The notes under the pieces: generated by a model
The model's database searches: none
What the model saw: only the letters and a program-made list of their open reading frames with translations
Told to the model about the DNA's origin: nothing
Program-made: the position numbers and the translations under genes
DNA from: an uncultured Chloroflexota bacterium
GTDB taxonomy: Bacteria; Chloroflexota; UBA11872
Length of the DNA stretch: 64,000 nucleotides
NCBI GenBank assembly: GCA_958296175.1
Contig: OY282448.1
Location: 907,899 to 971,898, forward strand
Reading direction: 5' to 3'
Shown here: in pieces, positions 5,212 through 62,228 of the stretch
Numbering within the stretch: the first letter of the stretch is position 1
Layout of the letters: each line of letters starts with the position of its first letter

Positions 5212-6378
5212 AAACGCCTCGATCCGCCGCAGCGCTTCTTCCAGCGCCTCCATGCTGGTGGCGAAGCTGAGCCGCACGCAGTCGTCCGCGCCGAAGTCCA
5301 CGCCGGGCACTACGCCCACGTGCGCTTCCTCCAGCAGGCGGCCGGCCCAGGCGGTGGAGCCGGCCACGCCTTTGGCCTCGAAGGTGTCGGACACGTCGGG
5401 GAAGGCGTAGAACGCGCCGCCGGGTTCGGGGCACACCACGCCTTCGATCTGGTTCAGCCGCTGGTGGACGAACTGCCCGCGGCGTTCGAACTCGGCGCGC
5501 ATGTCTTCCACACACGCCTGATCGCCGTTCAGCGCGGCGGCCAGGGCGTGCATGGTGAAGGTGGCCGCGCCGCTGGTGGTTTGCGACTGCAGCTTGGCCA
5601 TGCTCTGGATGACGTCCGCGGGCCCGGCCACGTAGCCGATGCGCCAGCCGGTCATGGAATAGGTCTTGGAGCCGGCGTTGAACGTCAGCGTGTGGTCGTA
5701 AGCGTGCGCCGAGGTGGCCGCGAAGCTCTTGAACGTGCGCCCGCCAAACAGCAGCCGGTCGTACATCTCGTCGCTGAACGTCACGACGTCCGTGTCCAGC
5801 AGCACCTCGGCCAGCGCGTCGGTTTCTGCGGGCGAATAGGCGGCGCCGGTGGGGTTGCTGGGGGAGTTGAACACGAACACGCGCGTGCGGGGCGTGAGCG
5901 CCTGGCGCAGTTGCTGAGGCGTGACCTTGAACCCGGCGTCCGCGCCCGCGGCCACGAAGACGGGCACGCCGCCGGCCAGCTTGACCTGCTCCGGGTACGA
6001 CACCCAGTAGGGCGCGGGGATGATGACCTCGTCGCCGGGGTCGATCAGGGTGGCGAAGGCCAGGAACAGCGCTTCCTTGCCGCCCACGCTGGCCAGCACC
6101 TGCGCCGGGGCGTAGGTCAGCCCGTTTTCGCGCGCCAGCTTGTCCACGACGGCCTGCTTGAGTTCGGGCACGCCCGAGGCGGGCTTGGCGTACTTGGTCT
6201 CGCCGCCGTCCAGCGCGGCGGCGGCGGCCTGCTTGATGTGGGCCGGCGTGTCGAAGTCGGGCTCGCCGGCGCCCAGGCTCACCACGTCGACGCCTTGCGC
6301 GCGCATGGCCGCAACCTTGTTGCTGACGGCGATGGTTCCCGATTCCGCCAAGTCTTGAACGCGCTGCGAGATCCTCAC
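5203..6378 (-). CDS. Class I PLP aminotransferase (aspartate aminotransferase-like)
   Basis: 391 residues, fold-type I aminotransferase, probably aspartate/2-oxoglutarate. Motifs: VSLGAGEPDFDTP near the N-terminus, SPSNPTGAAYS, the cofactor-binding VTFSDEMYDRL, and the Schiff-base Lys in NAGSKTYSMTGWRIGY. The C-terminal PEPGGAFYAFP and RLSFA (substrate Arg) are typical of subgroup Ib. The start is GTG at 6378, overlapping the TGA of the upstream nucleotidyltransferase as GTGA, so translation is coupled. The gene converges on the small membrane ORF. Confidence 0.92.
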   Translation of the reverse strand: MRISQRVQDLAESGTIAVSNKVAAMRAQGVDVVSLGAGEPDFDTPAHIKQAAAAALDGGETKYAKPASGVPELKQAVVDKLARENGLTYAPAQVLASVGGKEALFLAFATLIDPGDEVIIPAPYWVSYPEQVKLAGGVPVFVAAGADAGFKVTPQQLRQALTPRTRVFVFNSPSNPTGAAYSPAETDALAEVLLDTDVVTFSDEMYDRLLFGGRTFKSFAATSAHAYDHTLTFNAGSKTYSMTGWRIGYVAGPADVIQSMAKLQSQTTSGAATFTMHALAAALNGDQACVEDMRAEFERRGQFVHQRLNQIEGVVCPEPGGAFYAFPDVSDTFEAKGVAGSTAWAGRLLEEAHVGVVPGVDFGADDCVRLSFATSMEALEEALRRIEAFLA

Positions 6379-7712
6379 GGGCCGGCCTCTTGCTTCTGGG
6401 GAGATGCAGTCCCGCTATTGTGCACGACGGCGGCGCGGGGTTCACGCGCGGCGCCGGGGGCGAAGACGCCTTCGCGCGCCAGGTAGGCGGTCACGTCCCG
6501 GTCGAGCCGCGCCGGATAGGGCCGCTCCAGCCGCGCGCAGGCGCGCCGCAGCCAGCGGGAATACAACGCCGCCGCGTTGGCCGCAATCTGCCGAACGGCC
6601 TGGAGGCCGCCGCGGCGCAGCGGGCGCAGGGCGGCCTGAAGCGCGGCCGCATCGGCGGGCGCGGGCCGCGACAGGAGCTGCGGCGCTGCGGCGGGCGCGT
6701 CGGGATTGGCGCCAGCAGGCCCGCCGCAGCGCCCGTCCACGCGCGCCAGGTCGGCCGTGATCCTGGCAGCGGCGGCGTAGCCCCACAACAGCCCCGTGGA
6801 CAAGCCGCGGTTGTAGTAGGCGGCGCCGACCATGGCGTGCAGCAGCATGTCGACGGCCGCCTCCACGGCCTCGGCGGGGTTCGCCGCTGCGGGCGGCTCG
6901 CCGCCGGTGGGCGCGGGATGCAGCGGCACGGTCGAGCCATAGCGCTCGGCCAGCGCCTCGGCCAGCGGACGCAGCACGTCCAGGGTCGGGTCGATCGAAT
7001 CCGCCCGCGGGTCGGGCCACCCTGCGCTCCAGGCCGTCAGCGGCGCCAGGAGCGCTGCCGTGTCCGCCGCCGTCAATACACCGGCCGCCTGCTTGGGTCC
7101 CATGCGGCCCGCCGCCTGCGGGTCGTGCAGGAGCAGCGCCATGCGGTGGGCAGATTCCAACAGGTTCGCTTGCGCGTGCAGCGCTGACACCATCGCGCGG
7201 GTCTGGATCGCGCGCCGCAGGCGGCCGAGCTGCGGTGGAACCAGCGCGGCTTCGTGGTCGATCAGCTCCATCGGCGCGCGGCGCCGCGGCCGAAACGGGG
7301 CGCCGCAATACCGCGCCGCGTCGCCGTGCGGATCGACCAGCGGCGCCGCGGCTTCGGTTCGCGGCCGCCGCAGCGCCGCGGGCGTGGTGACGATCAGGTC
7401 CCCGCGCAGCGGCCCCTCGAACACGGCGATGACCAGGTGCTCGCCGCGCAGCGAGCGGACGCGCCAGCCCAGCAGCGGACGTATGGCGGCCAGCGCGTCG
7501 GGCATGGCCGCCAGCAGCGCGGGGTGATGGGACGCCTCCACGGCGACCCGCAGGTCGACGTCCGACCAGCGGTCCGCCGTGCCTTCCGCAATGCTGCCGC
7601 CCACCCAGGCGGCGGCGATCCTGGGGTCGCACGCCAGCGCCGCGCGCGCCGATTCGATGAGCTGGAGGTGCGGGCCGTCCGCGGGCAGGCGCGGGTTCGG
7701 CGGCAGCGTCAC
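6375..7712 (-). CDS. Nucleotidyltransferase-fold protein
   Basis: 445 residues. The N-terminal 130 or so carry the polymerase-beta-type nucleotidyltransferase signature GGSIAEGTADRWSDVDLRV, with the two metal-binding Asp in DVD. The rest is helical and Arg/Ala-rich and not recognised; it may be a kanamycin-nucleotidyltransferase-like helical domain. GTG at 7712 overlaps the stop of the nucleoside hydrolase (GTGA), and its own TGA overlaps the next GTG start, making a tightly coupled three-gene operon. It could modify a small molecule (nucleoside or aminoglycoside-like) or RNA; the sequence does not decide. Confidence 0.75.
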   Translation of the reverse strand: MTLPPNPRLPADGPHLQLIESARAALACDPRIAAAWVGGSIAEGTADRWSDVDLRVAVEASHHPALLAAMPDALAAIRPLLGWRVRSLRGEHLVIAVFEGPLRGDLIVTTPAALRRPRTEAAAPLVDPHGDAARYCGAPFRPRRRAPMELIDHEAALVPPQLGRLRRAIQTRAMVSALHAQANLLESAHRMALLLHDPQAAGRMGPKQAAGVLTAADTAALLAPLTAWSAGWPDPRADSIDPTLDVLRPLAEALAERYGSTVPLHPAPTGGEPPAAANPAEAVEAAVDMLLHAMVGAAYYNRGLSTGLLWGYAAAARITADLARVDGRCGGPAGANPDAPAAAPQLLSRPAPADAAALQAALRPLRRGGLQAVRQIAANAAALYSRWLRRACARLERPYPARLDRDVTAYLAREGVFAPGAAREPRAAVVHNSGTASPQKQEAGP

Positions 7713-8657: not shown

Positions 8658-10379
8658 TCAGGCGACGCGCAGCGCGCCTTCGGCGTGCAGCTCGCTGAGG
8701 ATGTCGGTCACCAGCTTTTGCGTGCCCTGCGGCGTCTTGCCGGCCGCGGCGCCCCAGCTGGCGGCGGCGGCGTCCACGATCTCGCGGCCGCTGCGGGCGC
8801 CGTCCAGCAGCCGCAGCAGCGAGGCGGCGGCGATGGAGAGGTAGTGCGAATTCGAGCTCTCGCCGTCGGGAATCTCCACCAGAGTCGCCGGGCGCAGCAC
8901 GTTCTCGCGGTCGTTGAGCATGTAGGGCTGCCAGCGCACGCCGTCGGCCCAGGTCGGCACGCCGTCCAGCAGGCGGTCCTGGCCAACGGGTTGGTAGTTG
9001 CGCGCCTCGCGTTCTTCTTGCAGGTAGGCCTGCAGCTGGGCGTCCTGCTCGTCGCTGAGTTCCAGCTCGAAGTTCTGGTAGATGATCTTCAGCTGCTCGG
9101 GGCTGAAGCCGCCGGCGTGTTTGAGTTTCAGGTGGCTGGTGGCGCCCGGGCTGCGCGCCACGCCGGCGGCTATGAGCGAGAACGCCTGCTGCAGCGAGAA
9201 GCTTTGGGACGGGTCCACAATGCGCCGCGCCTGCCAGAACCAGTCCTCGCGGCTGCGCTCGCCGTGGTACCAGTGCAAGGCCAGGTCCAGAAAGTCCTGG
9301 GCGGTCTTGCGGTATTCGCTGTCGTACCAATGCATGGCCAGCGGTTCCAGGTCGGGCTGCCGCAGCGCGGCCGTGAGCGCCAGGCTGGCGCGGATGGCCC
9401 CGTTCATGGCAAGCGCAATGCCGGTGGACAGCACGGGGTCCACAAAGCAGGCGGCGTCCCCGCACAGCATGTAGCCCGGCCCGTGGAAAGCCGTGCAGAA
9501 GAACGACCAGTCGCTGTCCATCTCCACGCGGTCGGATATCCACGCGGCAGAGTCGAGCAGGCGCAGCAGTTCCGGCGTGGCGGCCACGTTCTCCAGAAAC
9601 AGGTCGACGCGCTGCGCCGGGGACTTGCCGCGCACGCGGCGCGGGTCGGTCACGAAGCCCACGCTGCTGATGTCGTCCGCCAGCGGGATGTGCCAGAACC
9701 AGCCGGCCGCGCTGGACACGATGTGCAGGTTGCCGTCGTCGTTGCGGGTCAGGTCGGGGTAGACCTCGGACAGCTTGCGCGCGCCGCGGTAGTAGCCGGA
9801 CAGCGCCACGTGGCGCAAGGCCTCGTTGAACTCGCGCAGGCCAAAGCGCTTGCCCAGCAGCGACGACTGCCCCGAGCAGTCCAGCACGTAGCGGGTGGTC
9901 AGCCGTCCTTCCGTGCCGTCGCCGCCGCGCCAGCGCAGGCCCACCACGCGCCCGCCCAGCTGCACCACGTCGGTCACTTGCGTGGCTTCCCAGACGGCGG
10001 CGCCCGAGTCCTCGCTGTGGTCCAGCAGGATCTTGTCGAAGTCGGCGCGCCGCACCTGGAAGGCGAAGAAGGCGTCGTCGATCAGCTCCGAGAACCGCAG
10101 CGTCCAGGGCGCGCGCGAGCGGCCCCAGATGTAGGTTGCGCCGTACTTGCGCACGAACCCGGCCTGCACCACCTTGTCGGTGATGCCCATTTGGTCGAGC
10201 GCCAGGAAGGCGATGGGCAGCAGCGACTCGCCGATGTGTTCGCGCGGGAAGCGCTCGCGTTCCAGCACGGCCACGCGGAACCCGGCGCGCGCCAGCAGCG
10301 TGGCGGCGGTGGAGCCGGCCGGCCCGCCGCCGATCACGGCGACGTCGACCTCGTGGCCGTCGATGGGTCGGGTGCTCAC
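8658..10379 (-). CDS. Flavin-dependent halogenase-family protein with PqqD-like C-terminus
   Basis: 573 residues. FAD-binding VAVIGGGPAGSTAATLLARA is followed by HIGESLLP, and the halogenase signature appears as GWFWHIP at 226-232 (family: WxWxIP). Lys78 in FVRKYGATY lies where tryptophan halogenases have the catalytic Lys79. CGDAACFVDPVLSTGIA is the second flavin block. The tail, about 495-573, reads like a small winged-helix PqqD-type domain (LLRLLDGARSGREIVDAAAA ... DILSELHAEGALRV). The start is GTG 10379, overlapping the TPR gene's TGA. Chlorination or bromination of a carrier- or peptide-bound substrate is inferred; the family also contains simple oxidoreductases. Confidence 0.8.
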   Translation of the reverse strand: MSTRPIDGHEVDVAVIGGGPAGSTAATLLARAGFRVAVLERERFPREHIGESLLPIAFLALDQMGITDKVVQAGFVRKYGATYIWGRSRAPWTLRFSELIDDAFFAFQVRRADFDKILLDHSEDSGAAVWEATQVTDVVQLGGRVVGLRWRGGDGTEGRLTTRYVLDCSGQSSLLGKRFGLREFNEALRHVALSGYYRGARKLSEVYPDLTRNDDGNLHIVSSAAGWFWHIPLADDISSVGFVTDPRRVRGKSPAQRVDLFLENVAATPELLRLLDSAAWISDRVEMDSDWSFFCTAFHGPGYMLCGDAACFVDPVLSTGIALAMNGAIRASLALTAALRQPDLEPLAMHWYDSEYRKTAQDFLDLALHWYHGERSREDWFWQARRIVDPSQSFSLQQAFSLIAAGVARSPGATSHLKLKHAGGFSPEQLKIIYQNFELELSDEQDAQLQAYLQEEREARNYQPVGQDRLLDGVPTWADGVRWQPYMLNDRENVLRPATLVEIPDGESSNSHYLSIAAASLLRLLDGARSGREIVDAAAASWGAAAGKTPQGTQKLVTDILSELHAEGALRVA

Positions 10380-47088: not shown

Positions 47089-48285
47089 ATGCGCGAGATT
47101 CAAGCTGACCACTTGGTGTGGACCATTGGCGATGCGCCTTCGTACGGATTGAGTGCGCGCGATCTTCGGCTCAGCCCTTGGACGTGCGCCGAGTTTTTTG
47201 CCGGAACCGGGCTTGTTCGCGCGGCGCTGACGCCGGTAGGCTATTCCGTCGTCTGGGCCAACGACAACAACCCGTCAAAGCGGAACCTCTACCAGGACAA
47301 CTTCAGTGCCGCCGAGTTTCGATTTGACGACATTCGGAATGTTCGCGGCGCTGATGTTCCCTCGGTTGATCTGGCGAGCGCGTCGTTTCCCTGCGTCGAC
47401 CTCTCCCTGGCCGGGTCCAGGCGGGGCATCCACAGCGGCGAATCGAGCATGTTCTGGGAGTTCGTGCGCATCGTTGGGGAAATGCGTGGCCGGCAACCCT
47501 CGGCGCTTCTGGTTGAAAACGTCCCGGGATTCGCATATTCCGCTGGAGGAAAGGACCTCGAAGCGGCAATTGTCGGCTTGAACAACCTCGGCTATCTCTG
47601 CGACGCGTTTGTGGTGGATGCAAGGCACTTCGTCCCGCAGAGTCGGAAGCGTCTGTTTATTGTCGCGTGGAAAGGCGCCCCCGATTTGACGGACGATTGG
47701 GCCTCGTCGGAACTGCGTCCTGCATGGCTCTGCGATTTCATGCGTGCGTACGAGCATCTTGGTGTTTACCCCTTGCCAACCGCAGCCATGCCCACGGCCC
47801 CCCAGTCACTGGACGACATTGTCGAATGCATGCCAACGGACGACGGGAGGTGGTGGGGCCAGGAACGCCACCGGCGCTTTGTTGACTCCCTGTCGAGCAT
47901 TCAGGCGGCTCGACTCGACTCGCTGGCCGCAGACCAACGGATCAACTGGCGCACCGCCTACCGACGGACGAGGGGCGGAGTCGCCAGATGGGAGATACGG
48001 CGCGACGCCATTGCGGGCTGCCTGCGGACTACACGTGGAGGGTCCAGCAAGCAGGCATTGGTGGAAGCGGGCCAGGGCGATGTCCGCGTCCGATGGTTGA
48101 CAAGCCGGGAATATGGCCGGCTGCAAGGCGTTTCGGACGATTACAAGATTGGTAGTGTAACGGACAACGAAGCCATGTTTGCTTTTGGCGACGCGGTGTG
48201 TGTACCCGTCATTCGCTGGGTAGCACAAACGTATTTGACGCCGATTCTGAGTAGGGGGCTGCTGCGCGTTGCCACAGCGTCGTAA
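47089..48285 (+). CDS. C5-cytosine DNA methyltransferase of a type II R-M cassette
   Basis: 398 residues. Motif I AEFFAGTGLVRAAL, motif IV SFPCVDLSLAGSRRG (catalytic Cys in FPC), motif VI LLVENVPGF, motif VIII FVPQSRKRLFIVA; REYGRLQGVSDDY and GDAVCVPVI are motifs IX-X. About 120 residues between VIII and IX form the target-recognition region. It protects host DNA from the GIY-YIG nuclease that follows, whose frame overlaps by 17 bases. Not closely related by eye to the methyltransferase at the left edge (PPCEGHS versus FPCVDLS). ATG 47089. Confidence 0.93.
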   Translation: MREIQADHLVWTIGDAPSYGLSARDLRLSPWTCAEFFAGTGLVRAALTPVGYSVVWANDNNPSKRNLYQDNFSAAEFRFDDIRNVRGADVPSVDLASASFPCVDLSLAGSRRGIHSGESSMFWEFVRIVGEMRGRQPSALLVENVPGFAYSAGGKDLEAAIVGLNNLGYLCDAFVVDARHFVPQSRKRLFIVAWKGAPDLTDDWASSELRPAWLCDFMRAYEHLGVYPLPTAAMPTAPQSLDDIVECMPTDDGRWWGQERHRRFVDSLSSIQAARLDSLAADQRINWRTAYRRTRGGVARWEIRRDAIAGCLRTTRGGSSKQALVEAGQGDVRVRWLTSREYGRLQGVSDDYKIGSVTDNEAMFAFGDAVCVPVIRWVAQTYLTPILSRGLLRVATAS

Positions 48286-48970
48286 GGTGAGCAATCCTCC
48301 TGATGTGGAGGACATGCTCCGTGGCCTTGAGAAGCTATTGAACACTCCTGACAATAGCGGAAACAAGGTTGGAGACGCAACCTACGGCGTCTATGCGTTT
48401 TACGACTACGATGGTGAACCAATTTACATCGGACAAACAAGGGAAAAGATTCGTGTACGCATTCGCCGCCATTTGTCAAACCAACGCACAGACGCTGTGG
48501 CGATGGCTGTGCTCGACCCGATGGAAGTCGCTGAAGTTGAGATGTGGCCGCTGCATGACGTTGATTCGACAATGACGAATCACAAGATTAAGGACATTCT
48601 TGACCGTGCCGAATATGCGGTTCTCCAGTACGCGATCCAGCACTCTTCGTTTGGCGCTATTCTAAATGAGGGTGACATTGCTTCGACTGAACCATTTGTG
48701 CTGGGAAAATCCGTGCGCGGAAGGATTATTTCTGAGGAAGTTTTTGATCGCTATGTACACGCCGATATACGAATAGCACGACGAGCAGCAACGATAGCAA
48801 GCCTTGCGAAAGTCGTAAGTGAACGAAACGTGTCGGTCGGCCTTCGGCGTACGCTTGTCACACAAGCAAGACGACTGGAGGCTCTCGCGCGAAATCGGCT
48901 GGCTGAAGCCGGCGTGAACTATGAAGATTGGCTTCGTGAGCTACGGAGCGACGGTTCTGACGATGGCTGA
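48269..48970 (+). CDS. GIY-YIG nuclease, probable restriction endonuclease
   Basis: 233 residues from TTG 48269, or 227 from GTG 48287. The GIY-YIG core is YGVYAFYDYDGEPIYIGQTREKIRVRIRRHL: GVY, YIG, then the catalytic Arg in RVRIRRHL. Glu in DRAEYAVLQYAI is the likely metal ligand. The C-terminal 90 residues are helical and presumably bind DNA. Type II GIY-YIG restriction enzymes are known (Eco29kI class). Between a methyltransferase and Vsr, this is the natural candidate for the restriction half. AT-richer than the neighbourhood. Confidence 0.82.
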   Translation: MPQRRKVSNPPDVEDMLRGLEKLLNTPDNSGNKVGDATYGVYAFYDYDGEPIYIGQTREKIRVRIRRHLSNQRTDAVAMAVLDPMEVAEVEMWPLHDVDSTMTNHKIKDILDRAEYAVLQYAIQHSSFGAILNEGDIASTEPFVLGKSVRGRIISEEVFDRYVHADIRIARRAATIASLAKVVSERNVSVGLRRTLVTQARRLEALARNRLAEAGVNYEDWLRELRSDGSDDG

Positions 48971-49415
48971 CACATATAGCCCGGAAGTGCGGCGGCGTGT
49001 CATGCAAAGCGTAAAGTCGTCCAACACAACACCGGAGCTGATGCTGCGGCGTGAACTATGGGCCGTAGGCATGCGTGGCTGGCGCGTCAATCGAACCGAC
49101 CTCCCGGGAAAACCGGATATCGTCTTTGGTCCGGCTCGAGTTGCGGTCTTTGTCGACGGCGCATTCTGGCATGGGCATCCAACGAAGTATTGGCAGGGTC
49201 GCAGCGGCCCTTACTGGGACAAGAAGATCGAGCGCAACATGCGCCGAGATCGGGACGTCAACCGAAAGCTGCACGAGGAAGGCTGGACCGTCATCAGGGC
49301 CTGGGACTTCGAGGTCGAGCGAAACGTTGCCGCCGTCGCCGCGCGCGTGCGGAAGCTTGTCCAGCAGCAGCCTCGGGTCGATGGCCCGATCGCCGCGGCG
49401 CCTGGAACCCGCTGA
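48963..49415 (+). CDS. vsr: Very short patch repair endonuclease
   Basis: 150 residues. Nicks 5' of T:G mismatches that arise by deamination of methylcytosine. YSPEVRRRVMQSVKSSNTTPELMLRRELW, then LPGKPDIVFGPARVAVFVDGAFWHGHP (catalytic Asp in PDIVF, the HGH/FxDGxFWHG block), then RDRDVNRKLHEEGWTVIRAWDFE. The ATG at 48963 overlaps the nuclease stop by eight bases. Typical companion of C5-methyltransferases. Confidence 0.95.
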   Translation: MADTYSPEVRRRVMQSVKSSNTTPELMLRRELWAVGMRGWRVNRTDLPGKPDIVFGPARVAVFVDGAFWHGHPTKYWQGRSGPYWDKKIERNMRRDRDVNRKLHEEGWTVIRAWDFEVERNVAAVAARVRKLVQQQPRVDGPIAAAPGTR

Positions 49416-54333: not shown

Positions 54334-55084
54334 CCCGCTGACTGCCCCGGGACCGCGCAAGCTGCTGGCCGATTCGCTGACCGTGCTGGAGCTGCACGCG
54401 CTGCCCTGGCTGCGCCAGTGGTACCTGCTCGTGCTGGCCGCGGTGATGTTTCCTATCCCCATGTTTTACGTCTTTCAGGCCATCGCTCCAGACGACGCGG
54501 CCACCTGGCAGCGGCTGCTGGCGGGAACGCTGATCTTCGGCAGCGCCCTCAGCACCGCCATGCTAGTTGGGCAACAAATCGTGGCGCAGCGGTTCATGGG
54601 GCAGCTAAAGCTCGTCGTCACCATGCCAGTGTCCAAAGCCGCCTACGTGGCCGGCACGCTGGCCTTCACGTCCGTCTCCGGCGTCCTCACCACGCTGTTC
54701 CTGCTGGGGTTCGCCCTCGTCGCTGGCGTGGACGTCAGCCCCACCTGGGCGCTGGCGCCCGCGCTGCTGCTGACCGTGCTGGCGCTGGCCGGCCTGGTGC
54801 TCTTCGTCATGAGCTTCGCGCCCTCCATGCAAGTGGGCAACATCCTGGCCAGCCTAATCGCCATTGCGCTGGTCATCGTGTCGCCGGTCTACTTCACGAT
54901 GGAGGCGGCGCCGCCCGTCTTGCGCTGGTTCGGCTACGTGTCGCCCCTGCGCTACGCGGCCGACGCCACCGCCGCCGCGCTGGGCGGCCGCGCCGACGTC
55001 TGGCCGGAGCTGGCCGTCCTGTCCGCCTGGGCGCTCGCCAGCATGGCCCTAGGCCTCTGGCGCCTCCCCTGGCGCGAGACGTAG
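54320..55084 (+). CDS. ABC-2-type permease
   Basis: 254 residues with six predicted membrane segments. ABC-2 features: FGSALSTAMLVGQQIVAQRFMGQLKLVVTMPVSKAAY (long helix and EAA-like coupling), YVSPLRYAADATAAALGG near the C-terminus. Partner of the preceding ATPase. Substrate unknown. Confidence 0.9.
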   Translation: MARTDPLTAPGPRKLLADSLTVLELHALPWLRQWYLLVLAAVMFPIPMFYVFQAIAPDDAATWQRLLAGTLIFGSALSTAMLVGQQIVAQRFMGQLKLVVTMPVSKAAYVAGTLAFTSVSGVLTTLFLLGFALVAGVDVSPTWALAPALLLTVLALAGLVLFVMSFAPSMQVGNILASLIAIALVIVSPVYFTMEAAPPVLRWFGYVSPLRYAADATAAALGGRADVWPELAVLSAWALASMALGLWRLPWRET

Positions 55085-55134
55085 GGCGCCGTCCTGGCCG
55101 CCCCCCCCCACGCCCCAACCGGCTCGTTTGAACG

Positions 55135-55213
55135 CTACCCAGCATTTGTCCGCCCCGTGATAGTGAAGGAGTACAGCGCTGCATTGCGCAGCACGAGAAC
55201 GTGGGGCCGGAGA
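55135..55213 (-). pseudogene. 3' remnant of the beta-propeller glycosidase-like gene
   Basis: Reads RLRPHVLVLRNAALYSFTIT, then GRTNAG and stop (TAG 55137-55135). The last residues of the complete gene at 59386-61005 read LRFVMRNAKLYSFTVT. The nucleotides GAAGGAGTACAGC and neighbours are shared as well. It starts three codons after the stop of the 1353-codon gene, as if that gene had replaced the front of a paralogue. Confidence 0.65.
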
Positions 55214-55215
55214 CG

Positions 55216-58200
55216 TCAAAGAAGCAGTCGGCGGCGTATGACCGCTTCAGAGTTCTCCTGCCTAGCCTCATCCTCGTACAGGTCCGCGATGCGTCCGAGG
55301 ACACCGCTCGTGTAGGGGTGCTCGAATTCGATCCGTCGCGCCCATCCTCGATACCTGGCGGCCTGCTCATCGCCCTCGCCGCGCGTATGGATTACGCGAG
55401 CGTTATAGACACCAAGACTAAATCCACGCTCGATGTGCTCGGAAGGAATGGTCTCCATGACCTCGCAGACCGATCGGCACGGCCATACGCCGCTCTGGTC
55501 GGCTGGCGCCTTGGCGAGAAGCTGACCGATGCGCCGGTCGCCAACGTCCGCACGGCCATGCTCGGCGCACAGGCTGCGCACTTCCTTGACCCAGTGCAGC
55601 AGGTGCTGGGCGTCGATCGTGTCATCGGATGCAGTACCGGGAATGCGGCTGACGCCTTCGAGGAACCGGTAGGCGGCTGTGGCAGCGGCATCCCGCTGAC
55701 CTGCGTCCTCGAACTGCCACTCTGGCGGGTCCTGACCATCGCCGCTGCGTTTGAAGATGTACGCGAGAGCTTGAACGAATAGAATTGGCCACTCCTCGAT
55801 CTGGCGTTCCAGATTGGGGATGCCGTGCTTGCTGTAGTCGAGCGCTCCAATGAATGCAAGTTCCAGTCGCGCCATCTCGACCGACGTGACGCCGGCGCGG
55901 CCGTCGAGGGCGTCCAGCGCCTGCGAGATTTCTAAAGCCTCGAGCGCATCGCCGGGGCCTGACTCGTCGTTGGCCGCAGCAAGCGCCGTCAGGAGTCGTT
56001 TGAAGCGCGACGTCTCGACTTTCTTCCATTCCCACCGCACGGCGTGGAAAGCCGTGTGCGGTCGACCGGCGTCCAGGAAGCGATCGATGGACTCGGTTAT
56101 CTCCGCCTCGGTGAGCTGGGGACCGTAGGGACCGACCTCGCGCCAGTATCGGTCGCGGACGTCCTGCGGCTGCTGGTTCAGGATGCGCCAGGTTTGCTCG
56201 CCGAATTGGGCGCAACAGAGAAGCCGTACCTTCTGGTCTGGAGTGGACGTCCCAACCACGGTCGACAGAAGTTCGAACTGCCGGCGCGCGTCGGTATGCC
56301 AGACGACCCCGCACATGAAGGCGTCGATTTTATCCCTGGGCTCGGCATCAGCGGACAGACAGGATCGCAGGATGTCGGCCGCAGCGTTCAGGCCGGATGA
56401 GTTCAGTCCCGCGTAGCGCCCAACCACGTGGGCGGCGCCGCTGCTTGCGAGGAGGGAGGCGACACCGGCAAATCCACGCTCTGTCCAGATATCCGACATC
56501 GCCTTGGTTCGTCGTTCGTGAATCCATGCTTCTCGCTTCACGTGGTCGAACTGCTCACCCTCGACCCACGCATCGGAAGGCACAACAACCCGTTCGCTGG
56601 CGAACAGCCAGGCATGGCGGCTGACTACGTCGCGAGGCTCGAGCTTCCGAGAGGCGGCGCGCGCTCGGTCGTGGGTTGCGGCCGTCAGACCGCGCTGGCG
56701 TCCGCGTCCAGTGAGCACGGAACGGCGAATCCGCTCGCGCAACTGTACCTTGGCCGTTTCGTCAGCCTCGTCCCGTGCCCAGGCGTCGATCAGACCCCAC
56801 ACGGTGGATTGGTCGTCAGGGGACATTGCAGCAAGACGCTCGACTAGATCGCCAAGCGTCGTGCTGTCGTGCTTATGCCATGCCAGCGCCAGACCCAGGG
56901 CTTTGCGGGCGAACGCGTCCTGCTCTTGCTTGGTAACGACCTCTCCGGCATCGGAGGGGACGGCGCGCCAGTGCGGCCGATAGCTGCGGCTCCCTTGCTG
57001 TTGGTCGGGGTCGAATTGCCAGGTGCAGATGTGCCAGCCGACGTCAGGGAACCGACTAACGAGCATTTCCAGGCCCTGCATGCGCTCGTCGAGCGTAGCC
57101 GCCGTTTGGGGCATCCAGGACCAATAGACGGCGGCAAGACTGGCGATTGGCTTGTTGGACCAGTTGTCATCGAGCTTCGTTTTCGCCAATTGCGCAAGGA
57201 TTGCGCTGACGCGCGAGAGATTTCGCGGGTCCCACGCCAGACATTCCAGCGCCCACAAGAGCCCTGTGCATGGACAGTCGCTGAACAGGCTGTTGCCTGC
57301 GGGTTTCAAGAGGCCTTGCAAAACAGGCTCTGGCAATCGGAGGTCCGTCTCGATCGATTGGAGAAACTCGTCTGGAGCTGCTTCGGCATATCTCGGAAGA
57401 TAATCTTCCTGCGACAGCAGCTTCTCGAGTGTGAGCGGCGTGAGAAGTCGTCGGACGAGTCTGGAAACTCGTCCCTCGACGTCAATACCAAGACGGTTTT
57501 GGAACAAGTCGTTCCCGTGGACTGACAGCAGCACGAGCGTCTCGCAGAAGCCGTCGCGCAGTGCTTTGGAGTGGTCGCGCACCTTGCCATAGAAGCCAGC
57601 CGCCCATCTTCGATCCTCCGGCAACCCCAGAGCCGGATCGACCTCCGATAGGACGTACTCGGCCAACTCCAGAAAATCCACAATGTTCTTCTCTGTCATC
57701 GACCCGCCGACGGCGAAGAGAACGTCGATTTTGGATACGACGCCGCGATGCTGTCCGACGGACCAGACCGGACAGTCGTCGAGTTCCAGCATGTGCGCGA
57801 TGGTTTCCTCGACGTTCTGATAATCGCCGCCCGCAAGGACGGAGAGAATTTCGCAGTCGGCGCTCGACCCTTTGTGCCATGCGCCGACCAGGGCCATAGG
57901 GATCAGGCTCCGGGCAATCGCCAAGTCCCTGGCCCATTCCGGTCCCCTGATCGCGTCGATACAGGAAAGCCGCCGCCGCAGAATGGTTGGCGAGCGGCCG
58001 GACGCTCTGGACAGCCGATCGAGGGCGTCCCGCTCGATGCCCATGTCGGCAAGCGCCGTCTCGAAGGCCTCGCGGCCCAGCGGTTGGAGGGCGATGTCAG
58101 GCTCCCGGTCGGTATAATTTCGGGGCCGTACGACGATGCAGTGACGCTGCCGGTACACGGTGGTGAGCTCGCGTTCGGCTTCCTCGTTCGACACGATCGG

Positions 58201-59277
58201 TATGAATGGCGACGGGGTAGCCGCCAGGGTCCGCAGGGTCTGCGCCGACTCGATGACCACTGCTCGATTCCTCTGATTGGCGGGCATGTCGACGTGCTCG
58301 AACAGACATGCAAGGAACGCGAGAGCTTCGTCCTTGGAGTCAGCGGCAACGACGAATGGCCGTCGGCTCGATTTGCCCAGCCACTCGCTGAACGTGCCGT
58401 GGAACGCGGTGATGGACGGCTCGAAGATCTTGGCCGTCATCTGCGGCTCGCTGGCCTCGGCCCATTGCTTCCAGGCTCGATCCAGCGTCCCGAACCCGTC
58501 GGTGGGCAGGTCGAGCTGCTCGGCCAGCCAGATTTGCCCAGTGATCGAGGCTTCCAGCCACTGTTCGAGGTCGCTGGCGTCGTAAGCCCGCACCTCTTTC
58601 CAGTTGCCGCGTGTTTCCATTCTGCTGGCCCAGTCGTTCTTGCCGCGCCACGTGCGAGGCGTGACGAAGACGAACGTGTGCTCCATCCGCTCCGCCACCG
58701 AAATGCTCGCTACCCGCTTGGCGTAGTCGCGGCCGGCTTTTGCTGCCGGCTGTTTATTCGTGCTGACTTCCCAGCCGGACTTTCCTTTCGGGACCCATGG
58801 CGTCGCCGCGTCTGCCTCGACCCAGCCGTCCCACCCCGGCCGCTGGGCGTTGTCGCCGCCGGGGAAGTCCACGCGCCGCAGGCCGCGTCCCGTGGAATGC
58901 ACCAGCCGGCGTAGCAGCACAGGCAGGTAGTCGCGCGCCTCGATGCGGTCCGCCCAGCTGTCGATCCGTCGCGCGGTGATGGGAGTGGCAAGGAAAGGCG
59001 GCACGTTGCCCTGGACTGCCACCGCCCGGTCTTCCTCGCGTCGTCGGTCGCGGCCCGCCTGCGCCTGGAGATCCTGAAGCTCCTGCCGGTCGGCCCCGAA
59101 CACTTTTTCCAGCCGCAGCGCCATTGTGGGAGACAAGGACGACTTGCCGTTCAAGAGATTGGACAACGCCGGCCGGCCGACGCCCAGTCGTTTGGCGGCG
59201 TCCGTCACGGACATCCCCTGGGGGATCACGTGCTGCCTGATGAAAACCCCGACACTCATGGCCGGTTCGATACTCAA
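55216..59277 (-). CDS. Giant HigA-HTH / nuclease-like / helical protein, putative defence gene
   Basis: 1353 residues from TTG 59277 (AAGGA at seven bases) or 1347 from ATG 59259. Residues 8-75 are a HigA-type HTH (VTDAAKRLGVGRPALSNLLNGKSSLSPTMALRLEKVFG). Residues 115-280 resemble a restriction-endonuclease fold: PGWDGW (Asp150), GWEVSTNK (Glu170, Lys175), DYAKRV, FVFVTPRTW. A region around 300-420 resembles a P-loop ATPase without a Walker A (FVVAADSKDEALAFL). The remaining 900 are helical, repeat-like. Lower GC than flanks. Overall layout recalls nuclease-STAND defence proteins; function inferred. Confidence 0.7.
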   Translation of the reverse strand: MSIEPAMSVGVFIRQHVIPQGMSVTDAAKRLGVGRPALSNLLNGKSSLSPTMALRLEKVFGADRQELQDLQAQAGRDRRREEDRAVAVQGNVPPFLATPITARRIDSWADRIEARDYLPVLLRRLVHSTGRGLRRVDFPGGDNAQRPGWDGWVEADAATPWVPKGKSGWEVSTNKQPAAKAGRDYAKRVASISVAERMEHTFVFVTPRTWRGKNDWASRMETRGNWKEVRAYDASDLEQWLEASITGQIWLAEQLDLPTDGFGTLDRAWKQWAEASEPQMTAKIFEPSITAFHGTFSEWLGKSSRRPFVVAADSKDEALAFLACLFEHVDMPANQRNRAVVIESAQTLRTLAATPSPFIPIVSNEEAERELTTVYRQRHCIVVRPRNYTDREPDIALQPLGREAFETALADMGIERDALDRLSRASGRSPTILRRRLSCIDAIRGPEWARDLAIARSLIPMALVGAWHKGSSADCEILSVLAGGDYQNVEETIAHMLELDDCPVWSVGQHRGVVSKIDVLFAVGGSMTEKNIVDFLELAEYVLSEVDPALGLPEDRRWAAGFYGKVRDHSKALRDGFCETLVLLSVHGNDLFQNRLGIDVEGRVSRLVRRLLTPLTLEKLLSQEDYLPRYAEAAPDEFLQSIETDLRLPEPVLQGLLKPAGNSLFSDCPCTGLLWALECLAWDPRNLSRVSAILAQLAKTKLDDNWSNKPIASLAAVYWSWMPQTAATLDERMQGLEMLVSRFPDVGWHICTWQFDPDQQQGSRSYRPHWRAVPSDAGEVVTKQEQDAFARKALGLALAWHKHDSTTLGDLVERLAAMSPDDQSTVWGLIDAWARDEADETAKVQLRERIRRSVLTGRGRQRGLTAATHDRARAASRKLEPRDVVSRHAWLFASERVVVPSDAWVEGEQFDHVKREAWIHERRTKAMSDIWTERGFAGVASLLASSGAAHVVGRYAGLNSSGLNAAADILRSCLSADAEPRDKIDAFMCGVVWHTDARRQFELLSTVVGTSTPDQKVRLLCCAQFGEQTWRILNQQPQDVRDRYWREVGPYGPQLTEAEITESIDRFLDAGRPHTAFHAVRWEWKKVETSRFKRLLTALAAANDESGPGDALEALEISQALDALDGRAGVTSVEMARLELAFIGALDYSKHGIPNLERQIEEWPILFVQALAYIFKRSGDGQDPPEWQFEDAGQRDAAATAAYRFLEGVSRIPGTASDDTIDAQHLLHWVKEVRSLCAEHGRADVGDRRIGQLLAKAPADQSGVWPCRSVCEVMETIPSEHIERGFSLGVYNARVIHTRGEGDEQAARYRGWARRIEFEHPYTSGVLGRIADLYEDEARQENSEAVIRRRLLL

Positions 59278-59305
59278 AGTGATGTCCTTGCAGCCTGCAT
59301 GAGTT

Positions 59306-59331
59306 CGTATCCCGTAGCGCTACACCATACG
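59306..59331. promoter_or_regulatory. 26-bp palindromic operator candidate
   Basis: CGTAT-N3-GTAGCGCTAC-N3-ATACG, a perfect inverted repeat outside the two N3 gaps, 29-54 bases upstream of the giant gene's start. Its first domain is a HigA-like HTH, so autoregulation is likely. Confidence 0.6.
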
Positions 59332-59385
59332 GAAGTGAGCGCGCAACTTTTCTTGCCTCCGGCGGGTGCCGCCGTGGTGAGCGAG

Positions 59386-61005
59386 CTACCGGCCGTCCGA
59401 GCGCGTGACGGTGAAGGAGTACAGCTTGGCGTTGCGCATGACGAACCGGAGCCGACGGTGCGGGGTGAAGCGGGTGTAGACCGTGCCGGAGTCGGTGGTG
59501 CGGGGGAGCGGGAGGGCGGGGTCGCTGCGCCAGGTCACGGTGTGCCGCACGTCGTCGCCGGTCAATGGGTCGCAGTCGCGCAGCTCGCGGCCGGGGAGCG
59601 GGTGGTCGGCGGCGTCGCGCGCTTCGACCTTCAGGTACCCGCCGCGGCCGCAAGCGGCGTTCACGATCAGGCGGTCGCCCTCGGCCATGAACGGCTGCGT
59701 GGCCAGCATGCCTTCGCGCGTGTCGTTGGCGCCGACCGATACGAACCGGTGGCGGCGCAGCGCGCCAATGCCCAGGGCATAGCGCTGGCCGTCTGCGCCG
59801 CGCGTGGACGTACCGCGCAGGCCTTCCTCCCCGCCCGAGTACCACAAGTCATGCGTGGAGGTGGCGCCGCCGAAGTAGACCCGGGTTTCGTCGTCGCCGA
59901 CGTCGAGAATACGGGGGATGCCGATCTGGTTCGCGCACCAGCTGCCCGGCGCGCCCAGTCCGATCCAGTCGTGCGTGGGCGCCAGCCGCTCCCAGCGCCG
60001 CCCGTCGCGGCTGTGCACCAGTTCCACGGTGGAGGTGTTGCTGACCTGATGAAACACGCCCAGGCACCCAATCCAATGCCCGCCCACGCGGAACGGACGC
60101 ATGCCGTAAAAGGCGGTGTCCAGATTGTCCAGCGCGGGGTCGGGGGCCAGGATCAGGCGCGGCTCGCTCCAGCGCACGAAGTCGCGGCTTTCCGCCATGA
60201 AGATGCGGCGCGCGACGCGGCGGTTGGGAACGCCCACGGCCGCGTCGTAGCTGGGCGCGCCGCCCTGCATGGGCGCGTGGGTCGGCCGCGGGCGCGGCGC
60301 CAGTTCCATCAGGGGATGGCGCGTGACGATGCGGTAGACGCCGCTGTCGGGGTCGAAGGTCGGAAAGATCGTGTCGCCCAGTTTGGCGCCCAGCGGCCCG
60401 AACGTCGGCGCTTCGTCATGCGGCGCCCAGTGGATGCCGTCGGGCGAGTGCGCCAGCCGGATGTTTGCGCCGGGATGTTCGTCCGCCACCCGAAATCCCG
60501 GCGGGCCCAGCTCGTAGAGCATCTTGTAGCGGCGCGCCGGGTCGCGTTCCAACGGGTCGTCCAGCAGCGCGGGGCCCCACACGTTGCCGTAGGTTTCACT
60601 GCCGAACACGATGTTGGTGCCGCGCCCGTCGTCGTGCACCAGCCCCATGGCCGGCTTCTCCCAGCGCACGCCGTCGGACGAGCGCGCGTACATGAGCCGG
60701 AAGCGGCTGTTGTCCCAGTCGATCAGCGTGCCGCCCAGCCGCGCCATTTTCTCGCGGTCGAGGCGCATGTCGGTGTAGAGGCAGTGAAACCCGCCGTCGT
60801 CGCCGCGCCACAATGCCCAGTCGTCCGCGCCGAAATTGGTGAAGTGCTCCCAGGGCCGGTCCTGCTGCAACACCGGGTTGCCCTGAATCTGTCGGGGCGA
60901 ATGAACGGTGCGGGTGACGTTCTGGACTTCTTCTAGCATCCCGTTGTCGAAGAAGAACTGCGGCCGCTCGCCGATGATGAGTTCGGTGGAGTCCAATCCT
61001 GTCAC
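59386..61005 (-). CDS. Beta-propeller glycoside hydrolase-like protein
   Basis: 539 residues from GTG 61005. Repeated blades of a five-bladed propeller (GH43/GH32-like): RPWEHFTNFGADDWALWR, MYARSSDGVRWEKP, AHSPDGIHWAPHD, MAESRDFVRWSEP, VHSRDGRRWERLAPT, each with the S/R-x-D-G-x-x-W turn. A C-terminal beta sandwich ends in MRNAKLYSFTVTR. No signal peptide. Catalytic acids cannot be assigned. A paralogue lies at the right edge and a 3' fragment at 55135. Probably cleaves or binds a plant or algal oligosaccharide. Confidence 0.75.
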   Translation of the reverse strand: MTGLDSTELIIGERPQFFFDNGMLEEVQNVTRTVHSPRQIQGNPVLQQDRPWEHFTNFGADDWALWRGDDGGFHCLYTDMRLDREKMARLGGTLIDWDNSRFRLMYARSSDGVRWEKPAMGLVHDDGRGTNIVFGSETYGNVWGPALLDDPLERDPARRYKMLYELGPPGFRVADEHPGANIRLAHSPDGIHWAPHDEAPTFGPLGAKLGDTIFPTFDPDSGVYRIVTRHPLMELAPRPRPTHAPMQGGAPSYDAAVGVPNRRVARRIFMAESRDFVRWSEPRLILAPDPALDNLDTAFYGMRPFRVGGHWIGCLGVFHQVSNTSTVELVHSRDGRRWERLAPTHDWIGLGAPGSWCANQIGIPRILDVGDDETRVYFGGATSTHDLWYSGGEEGLRGTSTRGADGQRYALGIGALRRHRFVSVGANDTREGMLATQPFMAEGDRLIVNAACGRGGYLKVEARDAADHPLPGRELRDCDPLTGDDVRHTVTWRSDPALPLPRTTDSGTVYTRFTPHRRLRFVMRNAKLYSFTVTRSDGR

Positions 61006-61283: not shown

Positions 61284-62228
61284 TCAAAAAGCCGTCGATT
61301 GGCGCACAACCGGCCGATAGGACCGCGCGTCGAAGCCCACGAAGCGCACGCCTTGCATGGTGGCGAAGCGCTGCGCCATGACGTCCAGCGCCTGCGGGTT
61401 GTCGTCCATCAGCACGAAGTTGCGGCCCAGCGCATGGGCCGCCTCGCCCAGCGTGCCGCTGCCGGCAAAGCAATCCAGCAGCGTATCGCCGGGCTTGGAG
61501 GAGGCGTGCACGATGCGCCGCACGATGCCCAGCGGCTTCTGCGTGGGATAGCCGGTGCGCTCGCTCCCGTTGGTGGGCACGATCGTGTGCCACCACGTAT
61601 CCGTGGGCAGCTTGCCGCGCGCCGCCTTCTCGGGTCCAACCAGCCCCGGCGCCATGTAGGGGATGCGCTCCACCTCCGCCGCGTCGAAGTAATACCGCGC
61701 AGGATCGCGCACGTAGACCAGAATGTTGTCATGTTTGGCCGGCCACTTGCGCGTGGGCCGTGCGCCGTAATCGTAAGCCCAGACGATCTCGTTCAGAAAG
61801 CAGTCCCGGCCAAAAATCTCGTCCAGCAGAACCTTGACGTAATGAACTTCGCGGTAATCCAGATGCAGATACAGCGAACCCGTTGGACGCAAGACCCGGT
61901 GCGCCTCCACGAGCCTCGGCTCCAGGAACGCCAGGTAGTCGTCGAAGGCGTCGTCAAAGGCGCGCGCGGCGACCTCGATCGAACGGTAACGCCGGCCCTG
62001 GAACCCTGTCCGGTCGCCGTCAGGGTCGCGCACCGTGCGCAACCGAACCCGCGCCTGCCGGCGGCCGGTGTTGAACGGTGGATCGGTGTAGATCAGATCG
62101 ACCGATTCGGACGCCATGCTGCGTAGAAGCGGCAGATTGTCGCCAAAGTAGACGGTGCCGCGTTCGCCTGCGTCGACGTGACGCTCGTTCGGGGGCGTGC
62201 GCGAGACGCCGACTTTGTCGGCGCTCAT
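61284..62228 (-). CDS. N4/N6-type DNA methyltransferase
   Basis: 314 residues. Motif IV IYTDPPFNTG, motif I DCFAGSGTLGEAA placed C-terminal to IV, so the beta group (N6-adenine or N4-cytosine). GSLYLHLDYREVHYVKVLLDEIFG and WHTIVPTNGSERTGYPTQKPLG are the usual linking blocks. ATG 62228 overlaps the stop of the esterase (ATGA), so it is the last gene of a sugar operon and has no restriction partner; it is possibly an orphan regulatory or former R-M enzyme. Confidence 0.92.
   Translation of the reverse strand: MSADKVGVSRTPPNERHVDAGERGTVYFGDNLPLLRSMASESVDLIYTDPPFNTGRRQARVRLRTVRDPDGDRTGFQGRRYRSIEVAARAFDDAFDDYLAFLEPRLVEAHRVLRPTGSLYLHLDYREVHYVKVLLDEIFGRDCFLNEIVWAYDYGARPTRKWPAKHDNILVYVRDPARYYFDAAEVERIPYMAPGLVGPEKAARGKLPTDTWWHTIVPTNGSERTGYPTQKPLGIVRRIVHASSKPGDTLLDCFAGSGTLGEAAHALGRNFVLMDDNPQALDVMAQRFATMQGVRFVGFDARSYRPVVRQSTAF

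Follow-up and report, generated by a model that had tools for sequence, protein, structure and literature searches.

The gene and its variable locus

Here we describe a large gene in a stretch of 64,000 nucleotides from an uncultured Chloroflexota bacterium (contig OY282448.1, positions 907,899 to 971,898; hereafter the window), and consider it as a candidate single-gene defence system against phage. On the minus strand of the window, the frame 55216-59277 runs through 1353 codons without interruption. The gene and its immediate setting comprise the following features.

55216-59277, minus strand: whole gene, 1353 amino acids, supported by full-length homologues; TTG start, with an alternative ATG start at codon 7 (59259)
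59285-59289, minus strand: AAGGA, a ribosome-binding-site-like stretch seen in the sequence 7 nucleotides before the TTG start
55090-59385: variable segment between conserved flanks, which end at 55084-55089 and resume at 59386-59408

Whole-length homologues of the encoded protein are present in two genomes of a sister genus (61-62% identity), and a full-length homologue with 53% identity is found in a metagenome-assembled genome of Planctomycetota. In a comparison of the window gene with its two closest homologues, codon positions 1, 2 and 3 were conserved at about 0.75, 0.80 and 0.54, respectively, and because of this pattern the frame is judged to be a real protein gene under selection. A search upstream of the gene found no sigma-70-like promoter. 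The GC content of the gene is 63.5%, compared with about 70% in the flanking genes. This difference in base composition had been pointed out in an earlier note on the same DNA, which placed the gene between sugar genes; the neighbours are instead an ATP-binding cassette (ABC) transporter pair on one side and a gene without a Pfam match (59386-61005) on the other.

The gene was present in 1 of 13 genomes of its genus, 2 of 6 of the sister genus and 16 of 400 of the phylum. At the same locus, nine members of the genus carry 1.9-2.4 kb instead, with an adenosine-deaminase-like frame and repeats, recognized by visual inspection of the sequence. Such variation is what would be expected of a site that holds an accessory gene, and on account of the sparse distribution and the variable locus we reject a conserved housekeeping gene. 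As a separate observation, the repeats beside the adenosine-deaminase-like frame are about 250-320 bp long in locus L038 (790-2942; L numbers denote the loci compared here) and its relatives, and their copy number varies between genomes.

Domains of the protein and a conserved upstream palindrome

From the promoter to the C terminus, we assign the following features to the gene.

59306-59331: proposed operator CGTATGGTGTAGCGCTACGGGATACG, matching the palindrome of its clade at 20/26 positions and the sole match of at least 16/26 in the 64-kb window
59077-59238, minus strand: HigA-type helix-turn-helix (HTH), residues 14-67 (Pfam HTH_3, TIGR02607, Foldseek)
58492-58980, minus strand: PD-(D/E)XK-like nuclease domain, residues 100-262 (invariant residues and predicted order of secondary structure)
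58828-58830, minus strand: D150, invariant putative catalytic residue
58768-58770, minus strand: E170, invariant putative catalytic residue
58738-58740, minus strand: K180, invariant, in the helix after E170
57958-58434, minus strand: degenerate P-loop-type domain without Walker A, residues 282-440 (predicted strands and helices; aligned with the GLSGVGKT region of PD-λ-4A)
55219-57930, minus strand: alpha-solenoid of about 900 residues (450-1353), the proposed sensor (structure prediction, Foldseek and recurrence behind other N termini)

In searches of Pfam, NCBIfam, PADLOC and PDB sequences, the HTH alone was matched and the rest of the chain had no match. Its assignment to the addiction-module HigA type in the earlier note is borne out by Pfam HTH_3 (E 3.5e-10) and by the HigA model TIGR02607 (4.7e-12; score 45.6, slightly under the cut-off of 47.7), and a Foldseek search of the PDB matched the domain to the HigA and GraA antitoxins. 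A palindrome, TGTATTGTGTAGCGCTACACAATACA, lies within 80 bases of the start in 12 of the 13 HigA-type members, with 19-26 of 26 positions matched, a within-clade agreement that is partly built in because the consensus was drawn from the same sequences. For each of these twelve members, 0 of 300 shuffles reached the observed match. The palindrome is found in none of the 13 members with other N termini, and the members sharing it span different phyla and replicons. In the window promoter taken by itself, a general scan for inverted repeats gave no significant result, and the operator emerged only through the comparison of homologues. HigA antitoxins repress their own promoters via palindromes (PMC6987408). 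Because of its restriction to HigA-type members, the palindrome supports autorepression of the gene by its HTH as the natural reading, in agreement with the self-regulation proposed earlier. Separately, members with an XRE-type HTH (L012, L056, L054) have palindromes of a different sequence at the start codon, such as GGTCATAT-ATTTC-ATATGACC in L056. This suggests, weakly on its own, that each HTH type may bring its own operator.

The nuclease-like domain was recognized from conservation and from an AlphaFold2 (AF2) model. All 31 nuclease-bearing members keep D150, E170 and K180, and D184 was 97% conserved. The two acidic residues named in the earlier note thus stand, and its lysine, K175, gives way to K180. 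The model of residues 1-470, run with 12 aligned relatives, had a mean predicted local distance difference test score (pLDDT) of 85.8 and comprised helix 114-129, strands 131-137, 151-157 and 165-171, helix 177-191 and strand 200-205, equivalent to an alpha-beta-beta-beta-alpha-beta core (114-232). This core was read from the order of secondary structure and not from a superposition, and pLDDT was mostly above 85 except in a loop around 142-145. D150 is positioned where the second strand begins, and E170 shortly before the third one ends.

Residues 282-385 were modelled as a Rossmann-like region, in keeping with the ATPase-like segment lacking a Walker A that had been described before. The motif GxxxxGK[ST] was absent from residues 290-340 of the window protein and from the same region of 38 members, and because 0 of 38 have it, the loss of Walker A is an old and shared trait of a family with a 'dead' nucleoside triphosphatase (NTPase). 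AF2 modelled residues 285-1353 as almost all helix, forming an alpha-solenoid (mean pLDDT 84). Fold prediction, the check suggested in the earlier note, therefore returned the restriction-endonuclease-like core, the pseudo-NTPase and the long helical tail that it had anticipated.

Foldseek searches with the solenoid gave generic solenoid matches, karyopherins, CAND1 and SAMD9, with FANCI with DNA also among them. For the N-terminal 470 residues, Avs4 and SAMD9 were among seven PDB matches at E ≤ 0.001, and the PDB matches of this part also include clamp loaders and other AAA proteins; overall TM-scores were low (about 0.2), and these matches speak for the layout but do not establish kinship with a particular protein. 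No nuclease domain was matched on its own among the PDB matches listed, and a search against viral predicted structures returned HTH and AAA matches only.

Family, mobility and kinship with known systems

Over residues 100-1347, the window protein matches the PHROG family phrog_18693, of unknown function (E 2.1e-125). This is the family to which the protein belongs, and it is uncharacterised and mobile. Most members have another HTH or none, unlike the window protein. The module from about residue 450 onward is constant across members and the front end varies: a HigA HTH with nuclease and pseudo-NTPase in the window, L006, L009 and L074, an XRE HTH in L012 and L056, an HTH_17/MerR-like HTH in L053, and a front without HTH in L013, L014 and L083. 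In the earlier note, an opening by a HigA domain was described as not known among STAND-type anti-phage proteins. Within the family, HigA is one of several interchangeable HTH types, and database entries for proteins of this kind exist under the name 'HigA family addiction module antitoxin', with some members named 'helix-turn-helix transcriptional regulator'. By analogy, exchange of front ends on a constant arm is the behaviour of effector-sensor immune proteins.

Two further arrangements were observed. In L078-L082, L086 and L068, the solenoid follows an N-terminal domain of another kind, which carries a QIKH motif and lacks a Pfam match; from the motif only, we read this domain as a putative further type of PD-(D/E)XK front. 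In L016 (9908-12673) and L085 (7908-10700), a short GxGHNIAxDLYIY-like tag alone precedes the solenoid, and in L016 a small hypothetical gene lies just upstream (9582-9902). The effector of the tag-only versions may act in trans.

Relatives occur on 23 plasmid records, 12 of them predicted to be conjugative, and also on viral or prophage-like contigs, genomic islands and chromosomes. The viral relatives came from alignment-led scans, of which that with the XRE-type clade returned mostly HTH alone; viral scans with single distant members or with an N-terminal alignment gave little or nothing. Defence genes are found beside several copies. AbiE adjoins those in Rhizobium and Aminobacter, the Acetobacter copy lies downstream of a type I restriction system, and the Thalassospira copy is located among SIR2, Abi, AbiE and RES-Xre genes. 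A copy in a sister-genus genome adjoins an MmeI-like enzyme, and others are near HsdR, Type ISP or Eco57I-type (type IIG) genes.

An Escherichia coli relative (WP_000871158; intact copy at L121, 12001-15747), 25% identical over 1317 columns, was matched in 204 of 5426 complete E. coli genomes, with 125 matches covering at least 80%. In the two intact-copy loci that were read, it lies between an ssrA integrase and a divergent PD-λ-4A/B pair, recognized by PADLOC with E 0 for PD-λ-4A and 2e-164 for PD-λ-4B. Many E. coli copies are interrupted by the insertion sequence IS3. In the same island, L121 also holds a 293-residue protein without a PADLOC match (5575-6456, plus strand). Homologues are thus mobile and adjoin defence genes, among them the PD-λ-4 pair of E. 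coli; the earlier note had named homologues in defence islands as support for its reading.

PD-λ-4 emerged from a functional selection (Vassallo and colleagues, PMC9519451) and is listed with a P-loop NTPase in a review (PMC10952713). By hhalign, the family profile matched the PD-λ-4A sequence taken from the neighbour of the E. coli relative with a probability of 96.6 (E 5e-10, 545 columns). The alignment is collinear from the nuclease end, with a DLxxWLxxxP motif, through the P-loop region to the mid-solenoid, and the nuclease part and the C-terminal part each match PD-λ-4A separately; two unrelated long proteins used as controls, HsdR and a Type ISP enzyme, gave no match to the family. The PADLOC model PD-Lambda-4_A weakly matched 12 of 34 family members (best 5.4e-5) and did not match the window protein. 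Searches of the window's genome and phylum with PD-λ-4A models gave nothing useful. Based on these comparisons, the family appears remotely akin to PD-λ-4A. There are clear differences. In E. coli, PD-λ-4A (1283 residues) is paired with PD-λ-4B, the family member directly adjoining, whereas no B gene adjoins the window gene; PD-λ-4A keeps its Walker A (GLSGVGKT at 241), where the window family has no P-loop; and PD-λ-4A has a QAKK nuclease motif and no HigA HTH, unlike the window protein.

Avs4 (AVAST type 4) is a signal transduction ATPase with numerous domains (STAND) that acts as a nuclease sensor of the phage portal. As in Avs4, the window protein combines a nuclease, an NTPase-like core and a long helical C-terminal arm in one chain; the STAND/Avs layout of N-terminal effector and helical C-terminal arm is found in the AF2 model and Foldseek comparison, and the arm would have the sensor role. 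The Foldseek match to Avs4 (E 2.1e-4, probability 1.00) has a weak TM-score (0.23), and no sequence match to Avs was obtained in Pfam, PADLOC or PDB searches. Avs proteins are ATPases, whereas the window protein has no P-loop. With HigA and GraA (PMC6987408) the protein shares the N-terminal HTH, by sequence and fold, as well as a promoter palindrome; here the HTH forms a single chain with an effector-sensor protein of 1250 residues, and a HigB toxin is absent among the flanking open reading frames, which rules out a HigBA module. Full membership therefore fails for Avs because there is no Walker A, for PD-λ-4 because there is neither Walker A nor B gene, and for HigBA because there is no HigB. 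By analogy, the protein would work like these systems while being a member of none of them.

Two other segments of the window carry DNA-modification genes. At 47089-49415 (plus strand), about 6 kb from the gene, a C5-cytosine methylase, a GIY-YIG domain protein and a Vsr endonuclease stand in a row, with a GC content of 58.5% against about 70% in the window; a DNA search found this segment in none of the 18 other genomes of the taxonomic family, and it looks like a recently gained restriction-modification cassette. An N6/N4 DNA methylase (61284-62228, minus strand; Pfam 1.5e-42, GC 65.6%) lies about 2 kb from the gene.

Proposed function and alternatives

We propose, with a probability of roughly two in three (0.68), that the gene encodes a self-repressed, single-gene, STAND-like nuclease sensor against phage that moves horizontally. 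In this model, the HigA-type HTH would bind the palindrome in its own promoter and hold expression low, as the conserved operator suggests. Upon infection, the helical solenoid would recognise some phage component, and the pseudo-P-loop domain would either relay the change without ATP or serve as a scaffold only. The PD-(D/E)XK-like domain would then cut DNA, so that phage DNA is destroyed or the infected cell killed. A more specific version is a tentative suggestion that we consider somewhat doubtful: that an entire, widespread STAND-like family which lost its P-loop senses phage through a nucleotide-independent switch from solenoid to nuclease, and that an interchangeable N-terminal repressor with its own operator unites effector, sensor and expression control in one polypeptide. 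A single gene would then join an immune sensor with self-control in the manner of a toxin-antitoxin system.

Several observations weigh against the proposed nuclease sensor. Two residues after E170, S172 occupies the position of the canonical ExK lysine (ExS), and K180 is located in the next helix. The putative active site would thus have a displaced lysine, and catalysis is no more than likely. Family profiles searched against the PDB gave no solved nuclease by sequence; all matches were at chance level, ribosomal protein uS13 being one of them. The window protein itself is not recognized by any PADLOC model. Without Walker A, ATP-driven oligomerisation of the STAND type cannot be assumed. 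The proximity of defence genes was assessed in tens of loci, with no matched control, and is a strong anecdote, not statistics.

Among the alternatives, the protein could be a restriction-like or plasmid-exclusion enzyme, in which nuclease and solenoid recognise foreign DNA structures directly (type IV-like), the HTH sets the dose, and plasmids and mobile elements are hit as much as phages. Alpha-solenoids can bind nucleic acid, and this possibility gains from the FANCI match, from the many relatives on plasmids and from the DNA methylases and restriction enzymes that often adjoin. We consider it unlikely, given a remote kinship to PD-λ-4A, which was selected for protection against lambda, and an Avs4-like layout that fits protein sensing. 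It is rather less credible that the gene is an addiction-type element whose HTH silences a toxic nuclease transcriptionally and which stabilises plasmids or islands instead of defending against phage. The HigA-type domain with its operator and the location on plasmids and integrase-bearing islands would agree with this explanation, as would the frequent IS3 disruption in E. coli, which suggests a cost; yet no separate antitoxin or labile partner was seen in the window, many members lack the HTH, and simple addiction leaves a conserved solenoid of 900 residues unexplained. Least credible is a large transcription regulator with a catalytically dead nuclease core acting at other promoters, as the displaced lysine and the regulator label given by some depositors might suggest, since D, E and K are invariant across very diverged members, including those without HTH, the operator occurs only once in the window, and the window's genome has no site within 3 mismatches of its 24-bp consensus core.

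The E. coli member of the family, present as an intact copy next to PD-λ-4, a system of proven activity, bears no label other than 'hypothetical protein' and is not covered by a PADLOC model. Should the family prove protective, ATP binding would be shown to be dispensable for immune sensors of the STAND-like kind. In that case, a defence effector could also carry its own transcriptional repressor, which would explain the silence of single-gene systems after transfer to a new host.

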